From an uncultured Dehalococcoidia bacterium (GTDB lineage: Bacteria; Chloroflexota; Dehalococcoidia; Lucifugimonadales; GCA-2712585), in contig OX638324.1 in NCBI GenBank assembly GCA_951812825.1, positions 2,395,141 to 2,459,140 on the forward strand: a stretch of DNA of 64,000 bases. The letters are read 5' to 3'. The position numbers were made by a program, and so were the translations under genes. The notes under the pieces were generated by a model. That model worked only from the letters and a program-made list of their open reading frames with translations. It had not been told where the DNA came from and ran no database searches. Below are positions 7,276 through 40,367 of the stretch, piece by piece. How positions within the stretch are numbered: position 1 is the stretch's first letter; every line of letters begins with the position of its first letter.

Positions 7276-7422
7276 CTCGCAGGCGCCGGATGAAGGACGG
7301 ACAGTACCGGCGCTCGCCTGGAACTACAGGCATTAAGGGCGGAGGCGTGCAAGAACAGAAAATTCGGAGGAACATCCCTCGGCAAGGGAGGTCTCCGTTA
7401 CACAAAGGAGGGAAAGTTCTAC

Positions 7423-7611
7423 TTGCCCAAAAGTGTAACGATTCTGTCTCCATCGGCATATCAGGCGTTGTTGCACGTCGTTACCGGGAACGAGAGGGAA
7501 GAGTTGAACCATCACGCCGAGTCTATGGGGACTTGCCGCGGCAGGGTTCAGGTTACGCGGTACACCCGGGACGCATGGGGAACAAAGAGGCTGACATTTG
7601 GAAAAAAGTAA
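7423..7611 (+). CDS. Possible small protein of unknown function
   Basis: A 62-codon frame starting at TTG, with AAAGGAGGG 11 bases upstream, and ending 2 bases before the hairpin at 7613-7637. The predicted protein (begins MPKSVTILSPSAYQALLHVV) matches nothing I recognise. It lies in the 440-base gap between dnaN and the small HTH gene, opposite in direction to both. The strong ribosome-site-like sequence is the only positive evidence and the spacing is long, so it may be chance. Confidence 0.3.
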   Translation: MPKSVTILSPSAYQALLHVVTGNEREELNHHAESMGTCRGRVQVTRYTRDAWGTKRLTFGKK

Positions 7612-7637
7612 AGTGGCGGAGTACGTTACCCCGCCAC
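7600..7637 (-). terminator. Rho-independent terminator of the small HTH gene
   Basis: GTGGCGG (7613-7619) pairs with CCGCCAC (7631-7637). Read on the minus strand, the stem is followed by TTTACTTTTTT, a proper T-tract, just downstream of the HTH gene stop at 7660. Confidence 0.75.
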
Positions 7638-7659
7638 TATAGAACAATTGCAGCCAAAT

Positions 7660-7884
7660 TTAGCTGACGCGCTTCACCTCAAGAGTCTCTCCCGGAGCCA
7701 AGGCAACCCTCCGAACTTCAATGCCGAGCTTGAGGAGCCAGTAGCCAAGGGTGGCCTTACTGACCCCCAGTTCCGCAGCGGTCTCGGAAAGACCAAGTTC
7801 GTTGACCTTCTCGGGAAGGAGCTTCTCCAAGTCTCTTTGGTATGCATCCTCAACCCTTTTCATCAACTTCGTCTTCCTCGCCAA
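7660..7884 (-). CDS. Small helix-turn-helix protein
   Basis: A 74-aa basic protein. Residues about 33-58 (LSETAAELGVSKATLGYWLL) form a clear helix-turn-helix of the Fis/resolvase-like type, preceded by a charged helix and followed by a short beta-like tail (APGETLEVKRVS). The TTG start at 7884 is preferred because AGGGGG lies 6 bases upstream; an ATG seven codons later has no such site. It has its own promoter (7925-7954) and terminator. The surrounding DNA is AT-richer than its neighbours. It is probably a DNA-binding regulator that may act on the repeats next to it; target unknown. Confidence 0.75.
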   Translation of the reverse strand: MARKTKLMKRVEDAYQRDLEKLLPEKVNELGLSETAAELGVSKATLGYWLLKLGIEVRRVALAPGETLEVKRVS

Positions 7885-7924
7885 ACTGCACCCCCTTACT
7901 AGCTATTTGGACTTCTTGTGGTGC

Positions 7925-7954
7925 ATAATAGCACCCGTTCTGTTGAAATGTCAA
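7925..7954 (-). promoter_or_regulatory. Strong sigma-70-type promoter of the small HTH gene, with an operator-like half site in the spacer
   Basis: On the minus strand a consensus TTGACA (7954-7949) and TATTAT (7930-7925) are 18 bases apart. The AGAACGGG half site (7941-7934) sits inside the spacer, and the same word recurs on the opposite strand at 7996-8003, which suggests autoregulation. Confidence 0.7.
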
Positions 7955-8152
7955 GGGTATCCTAGAGTTTTATTAGAAAAAACTTAACTTTGTTTAGAAC
8001 GGGTCAGATTTATTAGAACAAGCTCCTTTCAACCGGTTACACTTCTCCTAATTCTCCCCTGGCTTAGTCTTTTTTTACAATTACCGGAGATTAACAGCGA
8101 AAATACTACATTTCTACCCCAATACATTACTACATTCTTTGTATCAGATACA

Positions 8153-8184
8153 GGTAATAGAATGTAGCACTGCATTCTATTACC
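8153..8184. promoter_or_regulatory. Perfect 12-8-12 palindrome, operator candidate
   Basis: GGTAATAGAATG (8153-8164) and CATTCTATTACC (8173-8184) are exact reverse complements around an 8-base spacer, ending 30 bases before the start of the AIR-synthase-like gene. Related words (ATTACCG, ACATTCT) recur close by at 8081-8140 and 8188-8196. It could be a dimeric repressor site or an RNA hairpin in the leader. Confidence 0.6.
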
Positions 8185-8214
8185 GCTCATTACCGCGCCA
8201 TCGGAGGAATCGAC

Positions 8215-9225
8215 GTGAAGCTAGGCAAGTTGACCCCAGACACTCTGGAGGCCCTGTTAAGCCGCGTTCCGGTTTCAGACCCGCGGGTTATCCTCGGGCC
8301 CAAAGTGGGGGAGGACGCCGCGCTGCTGGACTTCGGCGACGAGGTCCTGGTGGCCAAGACGGACCCTATAACCTTCGCTACGGACCTTATTGGCTGGTAC
8401 GCCGTGCACGTCAACGCCAACGACGTGGCCTGCGCCGGAGCAAAGCCCCGATGGTTCATGGCCACCCTGCTGCTTCCCCAGCGGATGAACGAAGAGAGCG
8501 TATCTGAGATATTCCGACAGATTACGGACGCCTGCGACTCTCTGGACGTGACACTGGTGGGCGGGCACACGGAGGTGACGCAATATCTGGACCAGCCCAT
8601 CATCGTCGGATGCATGTTGGGAGTTGCGCCCAGGGACCGGGCGTTGACCACCGGCGACGCCCGGGTTGGCGATTATGTCATCCTGACGAAGGGCATATCC
8701 CTGGAAGGTTCCGCCCTGCTGGCCCGGGAACAGGCGGAAGTCCTCCTGAAGGGCGGCATGAACCCATCCCTCATTGAGGAAGCGGCTGGACTGCTGTTCA
8801 ACCCCGGCATCAGCGTAGTCAGCGACGCTCGCATCGCCTGCGACGCCGCTAACGTCCACAGTCTTCACGATCCAACGGAAGGGGGGCTGGCCACGGCGCT
8901 TCAGGAAGTTGCCGCTGCGGCAGGCGTTGGGATGGTGGTTGACAGGGAGAACATTCCCTTCCTTCCCCATTGCGTGGAGATATGTAAAATCCTGAGGCTG
9001 GACCCCCTGGGCCTTCTGGCCTCCGGCTCCCTGATTATCACGTTGCCGCCGGAAGAAGCTCCCCAACTGCTTTCCGCCCTGGAACGGGAAGGCATCGATG
9101 CCCGGCACATCGGCCGCGTCACACCACCGGAAAGAGGAATCATGCTGCGCAGGGCAGAAAAACTCTTGCCCATGCCTACTTTCGAGCGGGACGAACTGGC
9201 CCGCTATTTCGAAGAGTCCGAGTAG
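8215..9225 (+). CDS. AIR-synthase-family protein, HypE-like
   Basis: Member of the PurM/HypE/ThiL/SelD superfamily, ATP-binding enzymes that activate substrates by phosphorylation. The N-terminal VGEDAALLDFGDEVLVAKTD and the HVNANDVACAGAKPRWF motif are those of the ATP/Mg site, followed by GGHTEV and the C-terminal half HDPTEGGLATALQEVA. It is 336 aa, as in HypE-like proteins, but lacks the HypE C-terminal PRIC cysteine motif, and no hyp or hydrogenase genes are nearby, so its substrate is unknown. The GTG at 8215 has GGAGGA upstream. Control by the palindrome at 8153-8184 is plausible. Confidence 0.8.
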   Translation: MKLGKLTPDTLEALLSRVPVSDPRVILGPKVGEDAALLDFGDEVLVAKTDPITFATDLIGWYAVHVNANDVACAGAKPRWFMATLLLPQRMNEESVSEIFRQITDACDSLDVTLVGGHTEVTQYLDQPIIVGCMLGVAPRDRALTTGDARVGDYVILTKGISLEGSALLAREQAEVLLKGGMNPSLIEEAAGLLFNPGISVVSDARIACDAANVHSLHDPTEGGLATALQEVAAAAGVGMVVDRENIPFLPHCVEICKILRLDPLGLLASGSLIITLPPEEAPQLLSALEREGIDARHIGRVTPPERGIMLRRAEKLLPMPTFERDELARYFEESE

Positions 9226-10951: not shown

Positions 10952-11920
10952 CTAGTCGCCGGAGTAAGCGGCCAGGACGTCTTTCAGTCTTTCAAGGGTA
11001 ATGTTGGCTCCGCTGACTATGACCGCCACCTTCCTGCCCTGCAACTCGTCCTTCATCTTCAGCGCGCCCGCCAAAGCGGCCGCCCCAGCGTCTTCCGCCA
11101 ACGTGTGCGCCTTATCCAGCAGGACGCCGATGGCGTGGCCGATTTCGTCGTCGCTGACCAGCAGAAAGTCGTCAAGCAGATCCCAGAGTATCTCCTGGGG
11201 CACCTGGTAGCCGGACTCCGTAGCCAGTCCTTCCGCCTTGGTATTCATGGGCGCGTGGCGGATCTCCCGGTTCTTCCAGGACAGATAAGCCGCCGGGGCC
11301 TGCATGGACTGGACGGCCACGACCTTGACGCTTGGGTTCACGGCATTGGCCACGATGGAACAGCCGGCGGCGCCGCTGCCTCCGCCCAGAGGAACAAAGA
11401 TGTACTCCGCCTCGGGAAACTCCTCCAGAATCTCCAGGGCGTAGGTGGCCACACCGGCCACCAGCAACGGCTCGTTGGCGGCGTGAACGTAACGGTAGCC
11501 CTCTTCTTTTGCCAGCCGCTCGCTATATTCGCGGGCCTGGTCGAAGTTTGGCCCATGAAAGAGCACGTCGGCCCCGAGGTTGCGCATGGCCCGCACCTTC
11601 AGCGGATTGGCGCCCTCCGGCACTACGACGACAACCTTGGCCCCGAAGATGCGGCCGGCGTTGGCTACGGACTGTCCGTGATTGCCGGTGGACGCGGTTA
11701 TCAGTCCCTGACGAAGCTGTTCTTCGTCCAGATGCGCCAGAAGATTGATGCCGCCGCGCACCTTGAATGCGCCCATGGGATGATGATTTTCGTGTTTGAG
11801 TCGGACCTCTGCGCCGACGTAGTTATCCAGAGCGGGGTAGGAGATAAGGGGGGTCGGGCTGATGTATGGAGCGATGGTCTTCCGGGCCTCCAGTACGTCG
11901 GCCAATGTGGGTCTGCTCAT
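10952..11920 (-). CDS. PLP-dependent threonine/serine dehydratase-like enzyme
   Basis: Fold-type II pyridoxal-phosphate enzyme, 322 aa. The Schiff-base lysine is Lys53 in GAFKVRG, the substrate loop is ASTGNHGQSVA (76-86), and the phosphate-binding loop is GGGSGAAG (179-186). There is no C-terminal ACT regulatory domain, so it corresponds to the short catabolic type (TdcB or serine racemase-like) rather than biosynthetic IlvA. Expected reaction: threonine to 2-oxobutyrate plus ammonia, or the serine equivalent. The product could feed the 2-oxoacid:ferredoxin oxidoreductase encoded nearby; that link is inference. Confidence 0.85.
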   Translation of the reverse strand: MSRPTLADVLEARKTIAPYISPTPLISYPALDNYVGAEVRLKHENHHPMGAFKVRGGINLLAHLDEEQLRQGLITASTGNHGQSVANAGRIFGAKVVVVVPEGANPLKVRAMRNLGADVLFHGPNFDQAREYSERLAKEEGYRYVHAANEPLLVAGVATYALEILEEFPEAEYIFVPLGGGSGAAGCSIVANAVNPSVKVVAVQSMQAPAAYLSWKNREIRHAPMNTKAEGLATESGYQVPQEILWDLLDDFLLVSDDEIGHAIGVLLDKAHTLAEDAGAAALAGALKMKDELQGRKVAVIVSGANITLERLKDVLAAYSGD

Positions 11921-12117
11921 GGGCGAAATCCTCTCCTGTGTTAAGGGTGTGAAATCAATGTTAGGGCCTCAACCCACAAGGCGCAACACGGATAGAGAAT
12001 GATGACCTATAGCGGGAACCGGCGCAGACTGGATGAGAGCGTGGAAATTTTGTGACGGCGTTAGATGTCACATGACTCGAATTGCAGTCGTACCCTTCTC
12101 CTTGCGAACAATCCGCA

Positions 12118-12645
12118 TCAAGGAGGCGAATTCACCAAGTCTTCATTGGAACCTGTAAGATGCCCACCTAGAAATTGCTCAAATCGGTGGCGATACTCAG
12201 CAACGTCAAAATAGGGACTACAACCCTCTTTCGGGAAGACTTCGATCTCGAAGATTTGGCCGATCCTTTCCACCGTATCCAGGTTGAAAATGACACTCCC
12301 TTTCCGCCACACCTCACGCTGCTTACGGACTGTCGCCTTAACTCCGAGAGTGGTGTCTAGAATCGCCTTAATCTGGGGATCGCCAACTTTCCAGAATTGG
12401 AAGTGCGTGGCTCCAGTATCTTTGCCTTTTCGATCGTAGTAATAGAGAAGCAGACTTTCCTTGTTTTCAATGCGGAGCTTGAGGCGCCGCGTTATCTTCT
12501 CTTCTTCAGGGTTCATAAGGTGATATATGTAGTCTGACTGTTCTTTCACGTCAACAAGAGTCGCTCCGAGTTCCCGAAGAAGTTGGCGCACAGGGGTAAA
12601 GTCTGGGCAATACGCTTTAACGAATCGGTCTAAATGAACACGCAT
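12118..12645 (-). CDS. CYTH-domain protein (class IV adenylate cyclase / thiamine triphosphatase-like)
   Basis: 175-aa single-domain protein. The alternating charged strands RRLKLRIENKESLLLYYYDR and VRKQREVWRKGSVIFNLDTV followed by IFEIEV are the pattern of the CYTH triphosphate tunnel, with basic residues for the polyphosphate and acidic ones for metal. The usual N-terminal ExExK is less clear (the start reads MRVHLDRFVKAY), so the exact subfamily is unsure. Substrates in the family are ATP (to cAMP), thiamine triphosphate or inorganic triphosphate. It is AT-richer than both neighbours, which hints at recent transfer. Confidence 0.65.
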   Translation of the reverse strand: MRVHLDRFVKAYCPDFTPVRQLLRELGATLVDVKEQSDYIYHLMNPEEEKITRRLKLRIENKESLLLYYYDRKGKDTGATHFQFWKVGDPQIKAILDTTLGVKATVRKQREVWRKGSVIFNLDTVERIGQIFEIEVFPKEGCSPYFDVAEYRHRFEQFLGGHLTGSNEDLVNSPP

Positions 12646-12747
12646 CTGGGTAATCCTACGAAATGGTGGGGCAGCGCTGGATAGGGTCGCCGAATTTGTG
12701 GCATTGATGGCCGAGGTGGAGTAGGGCTACCTTCCCACACCCATTAA

Positions 12748-12777
12748 AAAAGAGTCGGAATGCAATCCGACTCTTTT
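12748..12777. terminator. Rho-independent terminator
   Basis: AAAAGAGTCGGA (12748-12759) pairs with TCCGACTCTTTT (12766-12777) with a 6-base loop. T-rich sequence on both strands makes it work in either direction. It lies 33 bases past the stop of the oxidoreductase beta gene and so ends that operon. Confidence 0.9.
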
Positions 12778-12809
12778 CTTGTCGGAGAATATGCTATCCC
12801 GAAAGGACT

Positions 12810-13796
12810 CTACTCCTCCGCCATGCCTGGGGGAACTACGCCGGGGATCCACCATCGCTCCCACATATCGTCGACTTGCTGTTGGAAGTAGGCTGTGTCT
12901 TCCTTGGTGAAGTGGGCGAAGCGGCCCTGACGCTCCAGGTATTTCTCTACGGGCAGCCGCGGGCGTCCCCTGGCCAGCAGCCGGGAGGGACCGTTAAGGG
13001 TTATCTTCCCGTCTTCGACTTCGTACTGCACCCAGATGCCCGTCTGCACCGCCAGCATCCCAAGCTCGTGGGAGTACATCGGGTCGTAGTCCCAACCCTT
13101 GGGGCACGGGTCGAAGGTGTGAATAAACGTCGGCCCGCCGATGCTGAGGGCCTTCCGCACCTTGTTCATCATGTCCGTGGCGTAGGAAGCGCAGCCTGTG
13201 GCGATGTACCGCACCTGCGGATGCCCCGCCGCCAGCATTCCCGCCATGTTCTTCTTCCACCGCTTGTTCATGATGCGATGGACGGTCCCCGGCGGGCTGA
13301 ACGTCGAGTTAGCGCCCCAGGGGGATGAACCGGACACCTGGATGTCCGTGTTGGCGTAGGACTCGTTGTCATACAGCAGGATTAGCAGATTGTAGTCGTT
13401 GTGGGTCAGCGCGGCAGAGATGGCCGAGAGGCCCATGTCCACGCCGCCGCCGTCTCCACAGAACGCGATGACGTTGATGGGTTCGTCCTTCATCTTCGCC
13501 TTGCGCATGAGCGCCTTGAGGCCGGCGGCGGTGCCGAGGGCGGCGGAGCCGGAGGAGCCGAGCTGGGTGTGCATCCACGGCACGACCCAGGGCGTGGAGT
13601 AGTAGGTGGTGTTGGCCACGTACATGCAGCCCGTGCTGCCCAGGACGATGGTCCGCGGCCCGGCGGCCTTGATCATGAGCTTCATGACCAGGGCCGACTC
13701 GCACCCCTGGCAGGTGCGATGGCCGGAGGTGAAAAACTCCTCCAGTGGCGACTGCTTTACTCCCCGCAGGGGGGTCAGCTGTTGTGTGGTCGTCAT
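12810..13796 (-). CDS. porB: 2-oxoacid:ferredoxin oxidoreductase, beta subunit
   Basis: Thiamine-diphosphate-binding subunit, 328 aa. The N-terminal GHRTCQGCESALVMKLMIKA holds the Cys-x2-Cys of PorB, a further cluster Cys sits in GSTGCMYVANTTYY, and the TPP site is GDGGGVDMGLSAISAALTHN. With the alpha and fused gamma-delta subunits it oxidises a 2-oxoacid such as pyruvate to acyl-CoA, CO2 and reduced ferredoxin. It is the last gene of the three-gene minus-strand operon, 2 bases after the alpha gene, and is followed by a terminator. Pyruvate is the most likely substrate from the PorB-like motifs, but a branched-chain or other oxoacid is possible. Confidence 0.9.
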   Translation of the reverse strand: MTTTQQLTPLRGVKQSPLEEFFTSGHRTCQGCESALVMKLMIKAAGPRTIVLGSTGCMYVANTTYYSTPWVVPWMHTQLGSSGSAALGTAAGLKALMRKAKMKDEPINVIAFCGDGGGVDMGLSAISAALTHNDYNLLILLYDNESYANTDIQVSGSSPWGANSTFSPPGTVHRIMNKRWKKNMAGMLAAGHPQVRYIATGCASYATDMMNKVRKALSIGGPTFIHTFDPCPKGWDYDPMYSHELGMLAVQTGIWVQYEVEDGKITLNGPSRLLARGRPRLPVEKYLERQGRFAHFTKEDTAYFQQQVDDMWERWWIPGVVPPGMAEE

Positions 13797-36395: not shown

Positions 36396-37256
36396 TCAAG
36401 CACCCGCGACGGCCCGGCAGTGGTCCAACACCGACGCTGACTTGGCGGGCATGTCCGTCAGAATCTGAAAGCCCTGCTCCAAACGGCGTTCCACGTCCTC
36501 CTTAGTCCTCACGCCGGTGGCGCAAGGCACGCCGTATTCCTGGCAGACCTTCAACGTCCGCAGCACCATCTCCTGCACGTCCGGGTCCTCGGTGGCGTTG
36601 CCGCCCAACCCCATGTCCACGGACAGATCGCCCGCTCCTGCCATTATCGCGCCGATGCCCTTCACGTTCTTTAGAATGTCCGGCAGGTTCCTCGCGCCCT
36701 GTACCGTCTCGATTATGCCAATCAGAAGCATTTCCCCGTCGGGGTCCAGGGGCCACAGGTCGGACATGTCCGTATACTCCTCCACCGTTATGCCCCAATA
36801 TCTGACCGCCACATCGTGAGGATGCCAGCCTCGCTCTCCCTTGGGAAGCATGTCCGGCGCTCCCTGGCGCTGGGGATACCGGGACGCTACCACCGCCGCC
36901 TCAGCCGCCTCCACCGAGTCCAGAACGGGAATGACGATGCCGTAGGCCCCCAGGTCCAGGGTGTGCTTGATAATCCACTGGTTCTGCTCCCTGGCGTTGG
37001 GTGTCATGCGAACGAAGGGCGTCGGGTGGGCCTGAAGGCTGCCGCTATCCGCAATTCGCCTCCTGTTCAGCAGGGCTTGCAGCGAAAGCCGGAGGGTGGG
37101 AAAGTCCAGCCCCGTATGCTCGTTATCAATGAAAACGTAGTCGTAACCCGCATCCGTGGCGAAGGCCAGGTCGTCCAGATTTCCGTTGTTGGCCCACGTG
37201 CCGACGGCGGGTTTGCCCCTTTCCAGCAGGTCGATAACCCTGTTCAGTCGCGCCAT
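36396..37256 (-). CDS. HpcH/HpaI-family aldolase (4-hydroxy-2-oxovalerate/2-oxo-acid aldolase type)
   Basis: 286-aa class II aldolase of the citrate-lyase/HpcH family, which splits 2-keto-3-deoxy or hydroxy-oxo acids into pyruvate and an aldehyde. Features are YDYVFIDNEHTGLDFPTLR (metal and phosphate site), GAYGIVIPVLDSVEAAEAAV, and IGIIETVQGARNLPDIL with the metal-binding Glu. The start at ATG 37256 has GGGAGGA 6 bases upstream; a longer frame reads into the repeat unit at 37343 and is not real. Likely part of aromatic or sugar-acid breakdown. Confidence 0.85.
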   Translation of the reverse strand: MARLNRVIDLLERGKPAVGTWANNGNLDDLAFATDAGYDYVFIDNEHTGLDFPTLRLSLQALLNRRRIADSGSLQAHPTPFVRMTPNAREQNQWIIKHTLDLGAYGIVIPVLDSVEAAEAAVVASRYPQRQGAPDMLPKGERGWHPHDVAVRYWGITVEEYTDMSDLWPLDPDGEMLLIGIIETVQGARNLPDILKNVKGIGAIMAGAGDLSVDMGLGGNATEDPDVQEMVLRTLKVCQEYGVPCATGVRTKEDVERRLEQGFQILTDMPAKSASVLDHCRAVAGA

Positions 37257-37342
37257 TTTCGTCCTCCCGTTCCGTACTGCTTGAGGATAATATCGGAAAC
37301 CCGCCGCCCATTGCAAAAAGTGGGGTGAAGTATACTCCTTCT

Positions 37343-37389
37343 CCACATGTCATTCTGAGGAGGCCCCACGACGAAGAATCTCGATGTGG
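37343..37389 (+). repeat. Palindrome-ended dispersed repeat
   Basis: CCACAT (37343-37348) and ATGTGG (37384-37389) are inverted ends. Between them is TTCTGAGGAGGCCCC plus ACGACGAAGAATCTC, nearly identical to 22791-22820. Located between the aldolase and VOC genes. Confidence 0.7.
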
Positions 37390-37463
37390 GCACAGTGGTT
37401 TGACCCTCCCGCAGCGGGATCCTATACTGCAACCACTCCACAACAATGAGCAAGGAGGCTGTT

Positions 37464-37874
37464 ATGGGCACGGGCGCACGGCTGCAGCACGCGGCATTCC
37501 ATACCACGGACCTGGATAAGGCGCGGGACTTCTACGGCAGGATTCTCGGCCTGGAGGAGATAGTCCGGGCCAACGTTATGAGCGCCGGCATCTGGTACAG
37601 CGCCGGGCCGGAGCACGAGCTCCACATTACCCTCAGCGACTCAGATGGCGTCCCCCAAAAGGGACGCGACATCAACCCTCGCAAGCGGGGGGTGGAAGGC
37701 AGACACCTGGCCTTCGCCGTCGATAATCTCGAAGAGACCAAGCGTCTGCTGGACGAAGAAGGCCTCCCCTACGTGGGCAGCAACGACGACCTGCCCCAGA
37801 TTTTCGTAGAAGACTTCGACGGTAACCTGGTGGAGCTGAACTCGGGCTGGGCCAGGCAGCAGCCCGCGGGCTGA
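37464..37874 (+). CDS. VOC-superfamily (glyoxalase-like) protein
   Basis: 136-aa vicinal-oxygen-chelate domain. LQHAAFHTTDLDKARDFYGR and IFVEDFDGNLVELNS carry the typical first metal His and last Glu of a glyoxalase/dioxygenase fold, and RHLAFAVDNLEETKRLL the second beta-alpha module. ATG at 37464 is chosen because AAGGAGG lies about 5 bases upstream. The sequence before the repeat copy at 37888 was probably once directly joined to the OsmC gene. Confidence 0.85.
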   Translation: MGTGARLQHAAFHTTDLDKARDFYGRILGLEEIVRANVMSAGIWYSAGPEHELHITLSDSDGVPQKGRDINPRKRGVEGRHLAFAVDNLEETKRLLDEEGLPYVGSNDDLPQIFVEDFDGNLVELNSGWARQQPAG

Positions 37875-37887
37875 CACTAACCCCCGC

Positions 37888-37921
37888 GCCAATTCCCAAA
37901 TCCGGTTGGCAAGCAAAGGAG
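37888..37921 (+). repeat. Direct repeat, left copy, flanking the lipoprotein gene
   Basis: 34 bases (core AAATCCGGTTGGCAAGCAAA at 37898-37917) repeated at 38621-38653. The shared part includes the AAAGGAG ribosome site, so each copy supplies the ribosome site for the gene after it. Confidence 0.8.
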
Positions 37922-37925
37922 AACT

Positions 37926-38546
37926 ATGGAAGTAGGAGGACTGTTTCAGGCGTTGATTCTAGTAACCGGCCTTTTCATTATTGTGGCATGCAATTCGAGT
38001 GTTGATTCAGAAGAACAATCAACAGAACAACCCAGTGCTCTAACGACGACGGTAGACGAGGCAATCTACGCGGTTGAATTACAACCATTTAGCCATTTCG
38101 AGGAAGCGGTCATGCCCATTGTGGATGAGTTACAGCAACCACGCGGCCTATTAAATGGTCAACTTCAAAACGACAAAGGTGACTTCTGCTGGTACACTCA
38201 ATTAGCGACTACAGAGGATTCGAGGTCGTATTTCTATGAGACATTAACTGGATCAGATACACTCATGGTATTCGATAAAGGTTGTATGACTGCAGCCACT
38301 CCTATCGGGATGAGCTTTTTTCAAAGAACGGTTAACGAAATTATCGGACGATGGTATTCCAAGCCTGATGCAGCCTTCCAAACGAAGCCAATTGATCTCT
38401 ATCCATCAAGTCAGTTTCAAGAGAATGGATGGTGCATGCAGTCCGCAACCTATCCGACTCAGGCTGTTGCTATTGAATATTTTGGCGATGCTGATGTCTT
38501 AGCCGCAGTGGTACACAACATAACAATCGGCGGCTGTACCCAATAG
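37926..38546 (+). CDS. Lipoprotein of unknown function, AT-rich inserted gene
   Basis: 206 aa, signal peptide and lipobox (FIIVAC, Cys22), then a soluble domain with four cysteines in Trp/Cys settings (KGDFCWYTQLA, VFDKGCMTAATP, ENGWCMQSATY, IGGCTQ), which may form two disulfides. I do not recognise a family. Codon use is clearly AT-richer than in genes on both sides. It lies exactly between two copies of a direct repeat (37888-37921 and 38621-38653), which points to a transferred single-gene insertion. Its ribosome site is in the left repeat copy. Confidence 0.8.
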   Translation: MEVGGLFQALILVTGLFIIVACNSSVDSEEQSTEQPSALTTTVDEAIYAVELQPFSHFEEAVMPIVDELQQPRGLLNGQLQNDKGDFCWYTQLATTEDSRSYFYETLTGSDTLMVFDKGCMTAATPIGMSFFQRTVNEIIGRWYSKPDAAFQTKPIDLYPSSQFQENGWCMQSATYPTQAVAIEYFGDADVLAAVVHNITIGGCTQ

Positions 38547-38620
38547 AGGCTCAATTTTTCCATTGAGGCGTTAGGCACAGCTAAAGGCACAAGTTAGTTA
38601 CATATCTGTCCAACATAGAC

Positions 38621-38653
38621 GCCAATTTCAAATCCGGTTGGCAAGCAAAGGAG
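38621..38653 (+). repeat. Direct repeat, right copy, carrying the OsmC ribosome site
   Basis: 33 bases, same core as 37888-37921, differing only by T/C and one length change near the 5' end. Includes AAAGGAG before the OsmC start. Confidence 0.8.
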
Positions 38654-38658
38654 CAGCG

Positions 38659-39177
38659 ATGGTCATCAAAGACCCGAAGGAGCACGTTGAGTACGACCCT
38701 ATGGTCGGCGTCCGGGGGCCGGTGCGCCTCGCCTCCGTGGAGGCAACGGCGGAGGTTGTGGAGGACCAGCTAAAGCGCGGCAACTGCGGCCGGTGGGAGA
38801 TTATCTGCGACGAACCGGACAGCCTCGGCGGCCTGGACGTGGCGCCTGCGCCCCTCCACTACTTCGCCATGGCCGTCCTCTTCTGAGAGATGACCCAGAT
38901 TGCGCGGTACGCGCAGTTCAAGAAGGTGGAAATCTCCAACGTCAAGGGATACATCAAGCTGAACCTGACCATGACCGGCTCCGTCCTGGCCGAGACCATC
39001 GACGCCAGCGCCTCCAGCGTGGAGACCAACTTCGTGGTGGAGTCCGACGCAGACCCGGATACCATCCGGTCCATCCTTCGCAACGCCCGACGGGGCTGCT
39101 GGGCCCGTCAGATGATCGCCAAGCCCATTCCCTTCAAGGACACCCTAACCCTTAACGGCGAGAGTTTCGAGTTCTGA
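38659..39177 (+). CDS. OsmC-family protein with in-frame TGA at the redox-Cys position (predicted selenoprotein)
   Basis: 172 aa if TGA at 38884-38886 is read as selenocysteine (residue 76). The first half (residues 1-75, ending APLHYFAMAVLF) and second half (EMTQIARYAQFKKVEISNVK onward, with second redox Cys147 in NARRGCWARQM) are in the same frame and together match OsmC/YhfA hydroperoxide reductases. The TGA sits where OsmC proteins have their peroxidatic Cys. A SECIS-like hairpin follows (38898-38918). The start ATG has AAAGGAG 5 bases upstream. Function: reduction of organic peroxides, or related thiol redox chemistry. selA, selB, selC and selD are not in this window. Otherwise it would be a nonsense-split pseudogene, which I think is less likely. 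Confidence 0.85.
38898..38918 (+). promoter_or_regulatory. Bacterial SECIS-like stem-loop downstream of the in-frame TGA
   Basis: TGCGCG (38901-38906) and CGCGCA (38910-38915) form a perfect 6-bp upper stem with apical loop GTA; A-T and G-T pairs extend it down to 38898/38918. The GU in the loop is 20 bases after the TGA, in the range expected for SelB recognition. It is inside the reading frame. Confidence 0.75.
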
Positions 39178-39233: not shown

Positions 39234-40367
39234 CTATTCGAACCCGTAGACCCGCGCGGCGTTGCCTCCGACAATCTTGTCCTGCTCCTCCTCCGGCACG
39301 CCCTCCAGAATCTCATCCAGAATGCGCTGTGACTCGGGGAAGGTGGACTCGGCGTGGGGATAGTCGGAGCCCCACATCAGGTTGTCCACGCCGATGATGT
39401 GACGCATCTGGACGCCGAGGGCATCCTCCTGGAAGCTGTGGTACACGTTGGAACGCATGAAGTCGCTGGGAATCGTGTCCCCCTTGAACCGGTAAGGGGC
39501 GGCCTGGTACCGCTCCTTATATGTGACGTCCATCCGGCCAATGAAGAAGGGAATCCACCCCAGCTCGTGCTCGGCGCTCACAATATTGAGATTGGGGTAG
39601 CGTTCCAGCACACCGGCAAAGACTATGTGTCCCAGGCACTGCCGGACGAAGTAGTCGTGGTTGCAGCGGTCTGCGCCCGTCTGGGCAATCTCGCCGTCTA
39701 TGACTACCTGCACGGCCCCCGGCCGGTTGGTGGTCACGTGAAGGCTGATGGGCATGTTCAACTCTTCCGCGGCGGCCCAGAAGGGTTCGTACATGGGATG
39801 ATTGTAAGTCTGTCCCGCCTTCGGGTAGGAGCTAATCATCGCCCCCACCAAGCCCATCTCGGCGCAACGTCGCAACTCGGCAATTCCCTCATCCACCCCG
39901 TCGTCCAGCAGCACTTCGGCTATACCCTTGAGCCTGTCGGGATAGGCGCTGCAGAATTCCGCCAGCCAGTCGTTGTAGGCGGCGAACACTGCCCGGAGCA
40001 GGTCGTTGTTCTCCATCCCGTAGAGGGGCAGGCCCGTAGACGGGTAGACCAGCCCGCCATACACGCCGTCCATGTCCATGTCCTTCACGTGCTCTTCCGG
40101 TATGAATCCGCCCGGCCTCACATTGTCGAAGACTCCGGCCTGGATGATCTCCTGGGGGTTGGTGAACCGCTTGCCCGCGGCGGCGATGGCCCCCGTGGGG
40201 CCCATCTTGATGTTGTCGTAGTACCACCAGTCGTAGGGGTCTTCGTCGCCACCCTTACGCAGATGGGGGATGCTGGTGCCGAACTTGGGGTCCATCCGGT
40301 CTTCCCATAAATTGGGCGGCTCCACAACGTGAGAGTCTGAAGATATAACCTTGCCGTAGAGGGCCAT
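39234..40367 (-). CDS. Amidohydrolase family 2 (ACMSD-like) paralogue 1
   Basis: 377 aa, TIM-barrel metal-dependent hydrolase or decarboxylase of PF04909. The N-terminal metal site is SSDSHVVEPPNLWEDR, the barrel histidine is in ISLHVTTNRPG, and the C-terminal aspartate is in LMWGSDYPHAESTFPES. Such proteins decarboxylate or hydrolyse cyclic carboxylates; substrate unknown. Five of these proteins are encoded in this window and this one, with the copy at 54489, belongs to the DSHVVEPP / SDYPH type. Strong GGAGG ribosome site. Confidence 0.88.
   Translation of the reverse strand: MALYGKVISSDSHVVEPPNLWEDRMDPKFGTSIPHLRKGGDEDPYDWWYYDNIKMGPTGAIAAAGKRFTNPQEIIQAGVFDNVRPGGFIPEEHVKDMDMDGVYGGLVYPSTGLPLYGMENNDLLRAVFAAYNDWLAEFCSAYPDRLKGIAEVLLDDGVDEGIAELRRCAEMGLVGAMISSYPKAGQTYNHPMYEPFWAAAEELNMPISLHVTTNRPGAVQVVIDGEIAQTGADRCNHDYFVRQCLGHIVFAGVLERYPNLNIVSAEHELGWIPFFIGRMDVTYKERYQAAPYRFKGDTIPSDFMRSNVYHSFQEDALGVQMRHIIGVDNLMWGSDYPHAESTFPESQRILDEILEGVPEEEQDKIVGGNAARVYGFE

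Follow-up and report, generated by a model that had tools for sequence, protein, structure and literature searches.

A lineage-specific AT-rich gene between direct repeats that each end in a putative ribosome site, upstream of an OsmC-related selenoprotein gene

How can a gene of foreign base composition come to lie directly ahead of another gene and leave it intact? The question is raised by a locus in the window (the whole 64,000-nucleotide stretch of Dehalococcoidia DNA that was analysed), in which an AT-rich open reading frame (ORF) is bounded on both sides by a direct repeat. The features of the locus are listed below, with ribosome sites as predicted from the sequence.

36396..37346, minus strand: HpcH-aldolase-like gene, divergent; its name was read from the sequence and it serves as the locus anchor in relatives
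37446..37874, plus strand: glyoxalase/VOC-family gene, the upstream neighbour; 142 aa, 63% G+C, PF00903 at E = 5e-10
37887..37921, plus strand: left repeat copy, 35 nt; exact core 37897-37921; AAAGGAG at 37915-37921, putative ribosome site of the inserted ORF
37926..38546, plus strand: inserted ORF, 206 aa, 45% G+C, lipobox-like IIVAC, no relative found
38547..38619, plus strand: AT-rich tail of the insert, 73 bp, 41% G+C, with a small hairpin CTCAAT/ATTGAG
38620..38653, plus strand: right repeat copy, 34 nt; exact core 38629-38653; AAAGGAG at 38647-38653, putative ribosome site of the OsmC gene
38659..39177, plus strand: OsmC-related selenoprotein gene, intact; in-frame TGA at 38884-38886, NF041052 at E = 3.7e-44

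The repeat pair and the gene between its copies

The preliminary description had reported two repeat copies flanking one gene, and both are present, GCCAATTCCCAAATCCGGTTGGCAAGCAAAGGAG at 37888-37921 and GCCAATTTCAAATCCGGTTGGCAAGCAAAGGAG at 38621-38653. Their extent needs correction: instead of a 24-base core in a repeat of 33-34 bases, we found an exact direct-repeat core of 25 bp (37897-37921 and 38629-38653) within a near-identical stretch that, with an extra leftward C match (37887 and 38620), measures 35 nt in the left copy and 34 nt in the right. One substitution and one indel, both toward the left end, distinguish the copies. AAAGGAG terminates both, 4 nt ahead of the ATG at 37926 and 5 nt ahead of the ATG at 38659, and would, as had been proposed, supply the ribosome site of each following gene.

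Chance origin of the repeat was ruled out, since direct repeats within 4 kb reached no more than 13-18 bases in 40 simulated windows (first-order Markov copies). In the real window, the 25-bp repeat is the longest direct repeat, and the runner-up (20 bp) has ordinary G+C between its copies. With up to three mismatches allowed, the whole 2.47-Mb genome contains the 25-mer twice, each time at this locus, and none of the 249 other genomes of the order contains it; the core has no exact match in viral contigs. These counts dispose of the possibility that the repeat is a ribosome-site motif common to many genes, and the suggested look for further copies next to other AT-rich genes yielded none. In the sequence used for the repeat survey (a 400-kb sample drawn evenly from the same genome plus the 64-kb window), GGCAAGCAAAGGAG occurs twice, as the two repeat copies, while the shorter AAGCAAAGGAG occurs four times.

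Both copies contain imperfect inverted arms, GCCAATT/GGTTGGC, around a spacer of 8-9 bases. A small hairpin, GCCAAUU/GGUUGGC, is possible in each (37888-37910 and 38621-38642), immediately 5' of AAGCAAAGGAG, and the differences between the copies fall in its loop. Compared with shuffled sequences, RNA folding was little better for the left copy (z -0.86) and modestly better for the right copy (z -1.97), and an RNA family search at the locus returned no family. The hairpin may act as a regulatory leader or as a recombinase site, or may have no function.

The insert, present once in the genome, comprises one 206-codon ORF and a 73-bp tail. Its lower G+C, noted earlier, is pronounced: 45.1% for the ORF and 42% at third codon positions, against 62.9% (third positions 80%) in the gene before it and 62.6% (87%) in the gene after it. 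Of all 621-bp stretches in the window, about 0.2% are equally AT-rich, with the place of the inserted ORF counted in. By codon position the ORF has 52/41/42% G+C, a pattern that a coding gene of a different compositional background could show, and not in itself proof of coding. No transposase, integrase or other recognisable mobility gene was found in the insert. No inverted repeats joining its two ends were listed within 37500-39000, and inspection near the ends by eye yielded only CTATG/CATAG, which is at chance level.

The inserted protein matched no family in Pfam, NCBIfam, PHROGs or PADLOC, the best hits lying far below any cut-off. A full-length relative was found neither in 250 genomes of the order and 393 of the class nor in genome_contigs, viral contigs, plasmids or phages; the best weak matches, in genomes G245 and G282, cover a signal-like stretch only. 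AlphaFold gave a mean pLDDT of 36 from the single sequence. The N-terminus, MEVGGLFQALILVTGLFIIVAC, has by eye a hydrophobic stretch and the lipobox IIVAC, with no lysine or arginine in front; the lipobox is the sole basis for calling the product a putative lipoprotein, and the missing positive residues could reflect loss of the original 5' end on entry.

Both neighbours of the insert are intact. The match of the OsmC gene to NF041052 (150 bits, cut-off 95) spans the in-frame TGA, and PF02566 matches at E = 5.3e-10 with the TGA read as a residue. The HpcH-type gene probably has its true start inside the listed reading frame.

The same locus in related genomes

Comparison with relatives, which had been suggested as a check, revealed the locus without the inserted gene. 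In G003, a member of the same genus, the HpcH-type aldolase gene (81% identity), the glyoxalase gene (82-85%) and the OsmC gene (82.6%, full-length) occur in the same order; the glyoxalase gene directly precedes OsmC, and the 60-bp gap between them lacks the ORF as well as the repeat. If the flanks in the window are joined at the repeat, ~52 bp remain between the two genes, near the gap of G003. A scan of genome_contigs with the glyoxalase gene found one close relative only, probably the G003 record itself. The gene order of the window is also kept in G006, with a gap of 201 bp, whereas in G004 and G001 the HpcH-type gene adjoins OsmC and the glyoxalase gene is missing. Across these four genomes the HpcH-type gene is 68-81% identical and adjoins the VOC gene, the OsmC gene or both, and in none of them is the inserted ORF encoded. 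The opposite outcome, relatives with the gene and both repeats, was not encountered: no relative carries the gene or the repeat. By parsimony, the simplest reading is one insertion of ~0.7 kb in the window's lineage. This agrees with the preliminary description, which had proposed a single-gene insertion that leaves OsmC intact: the insert is lineage-specific and foreign in composition, and its neighbours are unbroken.

Two readings that do without an insertion in this lineage were weighed against these comparisons. An old gene could have been deleted in the relatives between the repeats; repeats this long permit deletion, which has been inferred for some repeat-flanked loci (PMC2884548). This would take several independent losses (in G003, G004, G006 and G001) and a composition that stayed foreign throughout, with gene and repeat surviving in no relative, and we regard it as very improbable. 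Slighter still is the chance of an assembly artefact, a chimera joined at the repeat. The genome is a single contig with an estimated contamination of 3.9%, and was judged from the assembled sequence; against a chimera, the insert is bounded on each side by a repeat copy, the copies are non-identical, the locus is otherwise in conserved order, and a repeat-insert-repeat sequence would have to exist elsewhere in the sample.

Some further features of the window's own genome and of G006 were observed. The 10-mers GAAGAATCTC/GAAGGATCTC, apparently the core of a dispersed repeat, have 29 hits in 464 kb (window position 37373 and 28 in the 400-kb sample). Because a similar-looking sequence, GATTCTTCGACTGCG...CGCTCAGAATGACA, sits in the glyoxalase-OsmC gap of G006, that gap may have gained other DNA in another lineage. 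Contig 45 of G006 (L017) carries at 1257-1760, on the minus strand, a second OsmC-related gene, 54% identical and likewise containing an in-frame TGA; close to it lies an amidohydrolase gene whose product is distantly like that of window 39234-40367 (27%).

How the gene may have entered

The whole explanation that we consider most likely, with moderate confidence, is that foreign DNA was captured where a staggered break was repaired by filling in its ends. A foreign AT-rich fragment of ~0.7 kb with one ORF would have been captured in the 50-60 bp gap between the glyoxalase and OsmC genes, where the target had been broken with a stagger of ~34 bases around the OsmC leader and its ribosome site. 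Filling in both ends would have doubled the leader stretch, leaving one copy to serve the new gene and the other still serving OsmC, and the copies would since have picked up their one substitution and one indel. The ORF may be expressed together with OsmC, and arrival with its start codon just behind a ribosome site may be why the fragment was retained. What we observed is the repeat, a foreign base composition, absence from relatives and neighbours left whole; the staggered break and the fill-in are what we infer. Target duplication by such a break would explain why the repeat is present twice, why both neighbours are intact and why mobility genes are lacking, and loss of the gene by recombination across the 25-bp repeat should be possible. 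Against break repair, a stagger of 34 bases is long, and against target duplication, the inverted arms GCCAATT/GGTTGGC would be unexpected in a random target. That the insert starts just 4 bases ahead of the start codon fits selection, and fits equally a unit that brought its own leader.

The main rival to capture at a staggered break is a core used by a site-specific recombinase. In this reading, a small circular DNA with the gene and one core would have joined the chromosome at a like core in the gap, leaving attL and attR; the insert would be a passenger or remnant, with the recombinase acting in trans. With its 25 identical bp and imperfect arms on either side of an 8-9-base spacer, the core looks like a tyrosine-recombinase crossover; the copies differ in the spacer, as attB and attP may, and the genome encodes six tyrosine recombinases. 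Yet the insert has no recombinase of its own, the core was found nowhere else in the genome, in viral contigs or in the 249 other genomes of the order, and the hairpin folds little better than shuffles in the left copy and modestly better in the right; we hold this reading, including action in trans, to be rather unlikely. Of the earlier proposal that the insertion duplicated its target, the insertion stands, while the duplication is one reading beside a shared recombination core, the gap in the close relatives, G003 included, being too diverged to reveal a single ancestral repeat copy.

Alternatively, the gene could have entered first by some other route, and the OsmC leader could later have been copied ahead of it by template switch or gene conversion and kept as a ribosome site. 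The left copy stops exactly where it is useful, 4 nt ahead of the start codon, but two events are required and the left copy also holds the upstream bases CGCCAATT, which have no known use. We think this order of events improbable, more so than recombination at a shared core.

The locus beside known kinds of mobile and variable DNA

Small variable segments with flanking direct repeats, mostly <30 bp, are documented in bacteria: in the species studied, 10-18% of the small variable segments are repeat-flanked, and many variable segments are proposed to result from illegitimate recombination (PMC2884548, Genome Biol. 2010 11:R45). Like them, the locus is confined to one lineage among those compared, is repeat-flanked and could be deleted: it is missing from G003, G006, G004 and G001, where the flanks are conserved, and has repeats at both ends. 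It belongs to this kind of repeat-flanked variable segments. The published segments were compared within species, with stress on a class of 20 to 500 bp, whereas the window's locus is ~0.7 kb long, holds one whole ORF and has a putative ribosome site inside the repeat. What distinguishes the locus is this last property, a repeat that contains a predicted ribosome site and ends a few bases ahead of each start codon; we found no literature precedent with a duplicated ribosome site.

Other classes share single traits with the locus. Insertion sequences and transposons with target-site duplication also have direct repeats around the insert. The locus differs from a transposon or IS: there is no transposase, there are no obvious terminal inverted repeats and there is no second genomic copy, the insert being a single-copy ORF with no known domain. 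At ~34 bp, the repeat is longer than the target duplications known for such elements. Elements integrated by tyrosine recombinases likewise have an identical core at both ends, and the locus has their arms-and-spacer look; it differs from attL/attR elements in having no recombinase, one gene, and a core in a gene leader instead of a tRNA gene. None of the six genomic tyrosine recombinases lies in the window (the search covered recombinases of the tyrosine type), and the same core was not found in other genomes at up to three mismatches (249 of the order) or exactly (viral contigs). Integron gene cassettes resemble the insert in their single AT-rich ORF and in a GTTAGGC motif after the stop codon, whereas the border identity here goes far beyond a 7-base core site; an integron cassette was ruled out, as no match in the genome exceeds the TIGR02249 cut-off for integron integrase.

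We also considered a recombinase-driven system of single-gene cassettes whose crossover site includes the ribosome-binding site. If true, every inserted gene would be translated immediately on arrival, with no loss of translation for the gene downstream of it. The 400-kb sample contained no second case of a repeat-flanked insert: its direct repeats of at least 20 bases were low-complexity or tandem arrays, or sets of shared spacing that resemble tandem gene copies. Six other AT-rich stretches in the window and the sample had no bounding repeat longer than 11 bases. Nothing in these two results points to a recurring system, and we see little chance of one. Within the window, G+C dips below 50% at 7396-8526 and 11887-12839, with no flanking repeats >10 bases; a 175-aa ORF inside the latter (12118-12645, minus strand) encodes a product that looks CYTH/adenylate-cyclase-like.

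The preliminary description had spoken of a route of gene gain. As a repeated process this found no support in the 400-kb sample, and one case shows no general route. As a single case, the locus cleanly illustrates how a foreign gene can enter a gene order without breaking its neighbour, with a stretch carrying a putative ribosome site on both sides, and the filled site of the window pairs well with the site in G003, which lacks the gene.
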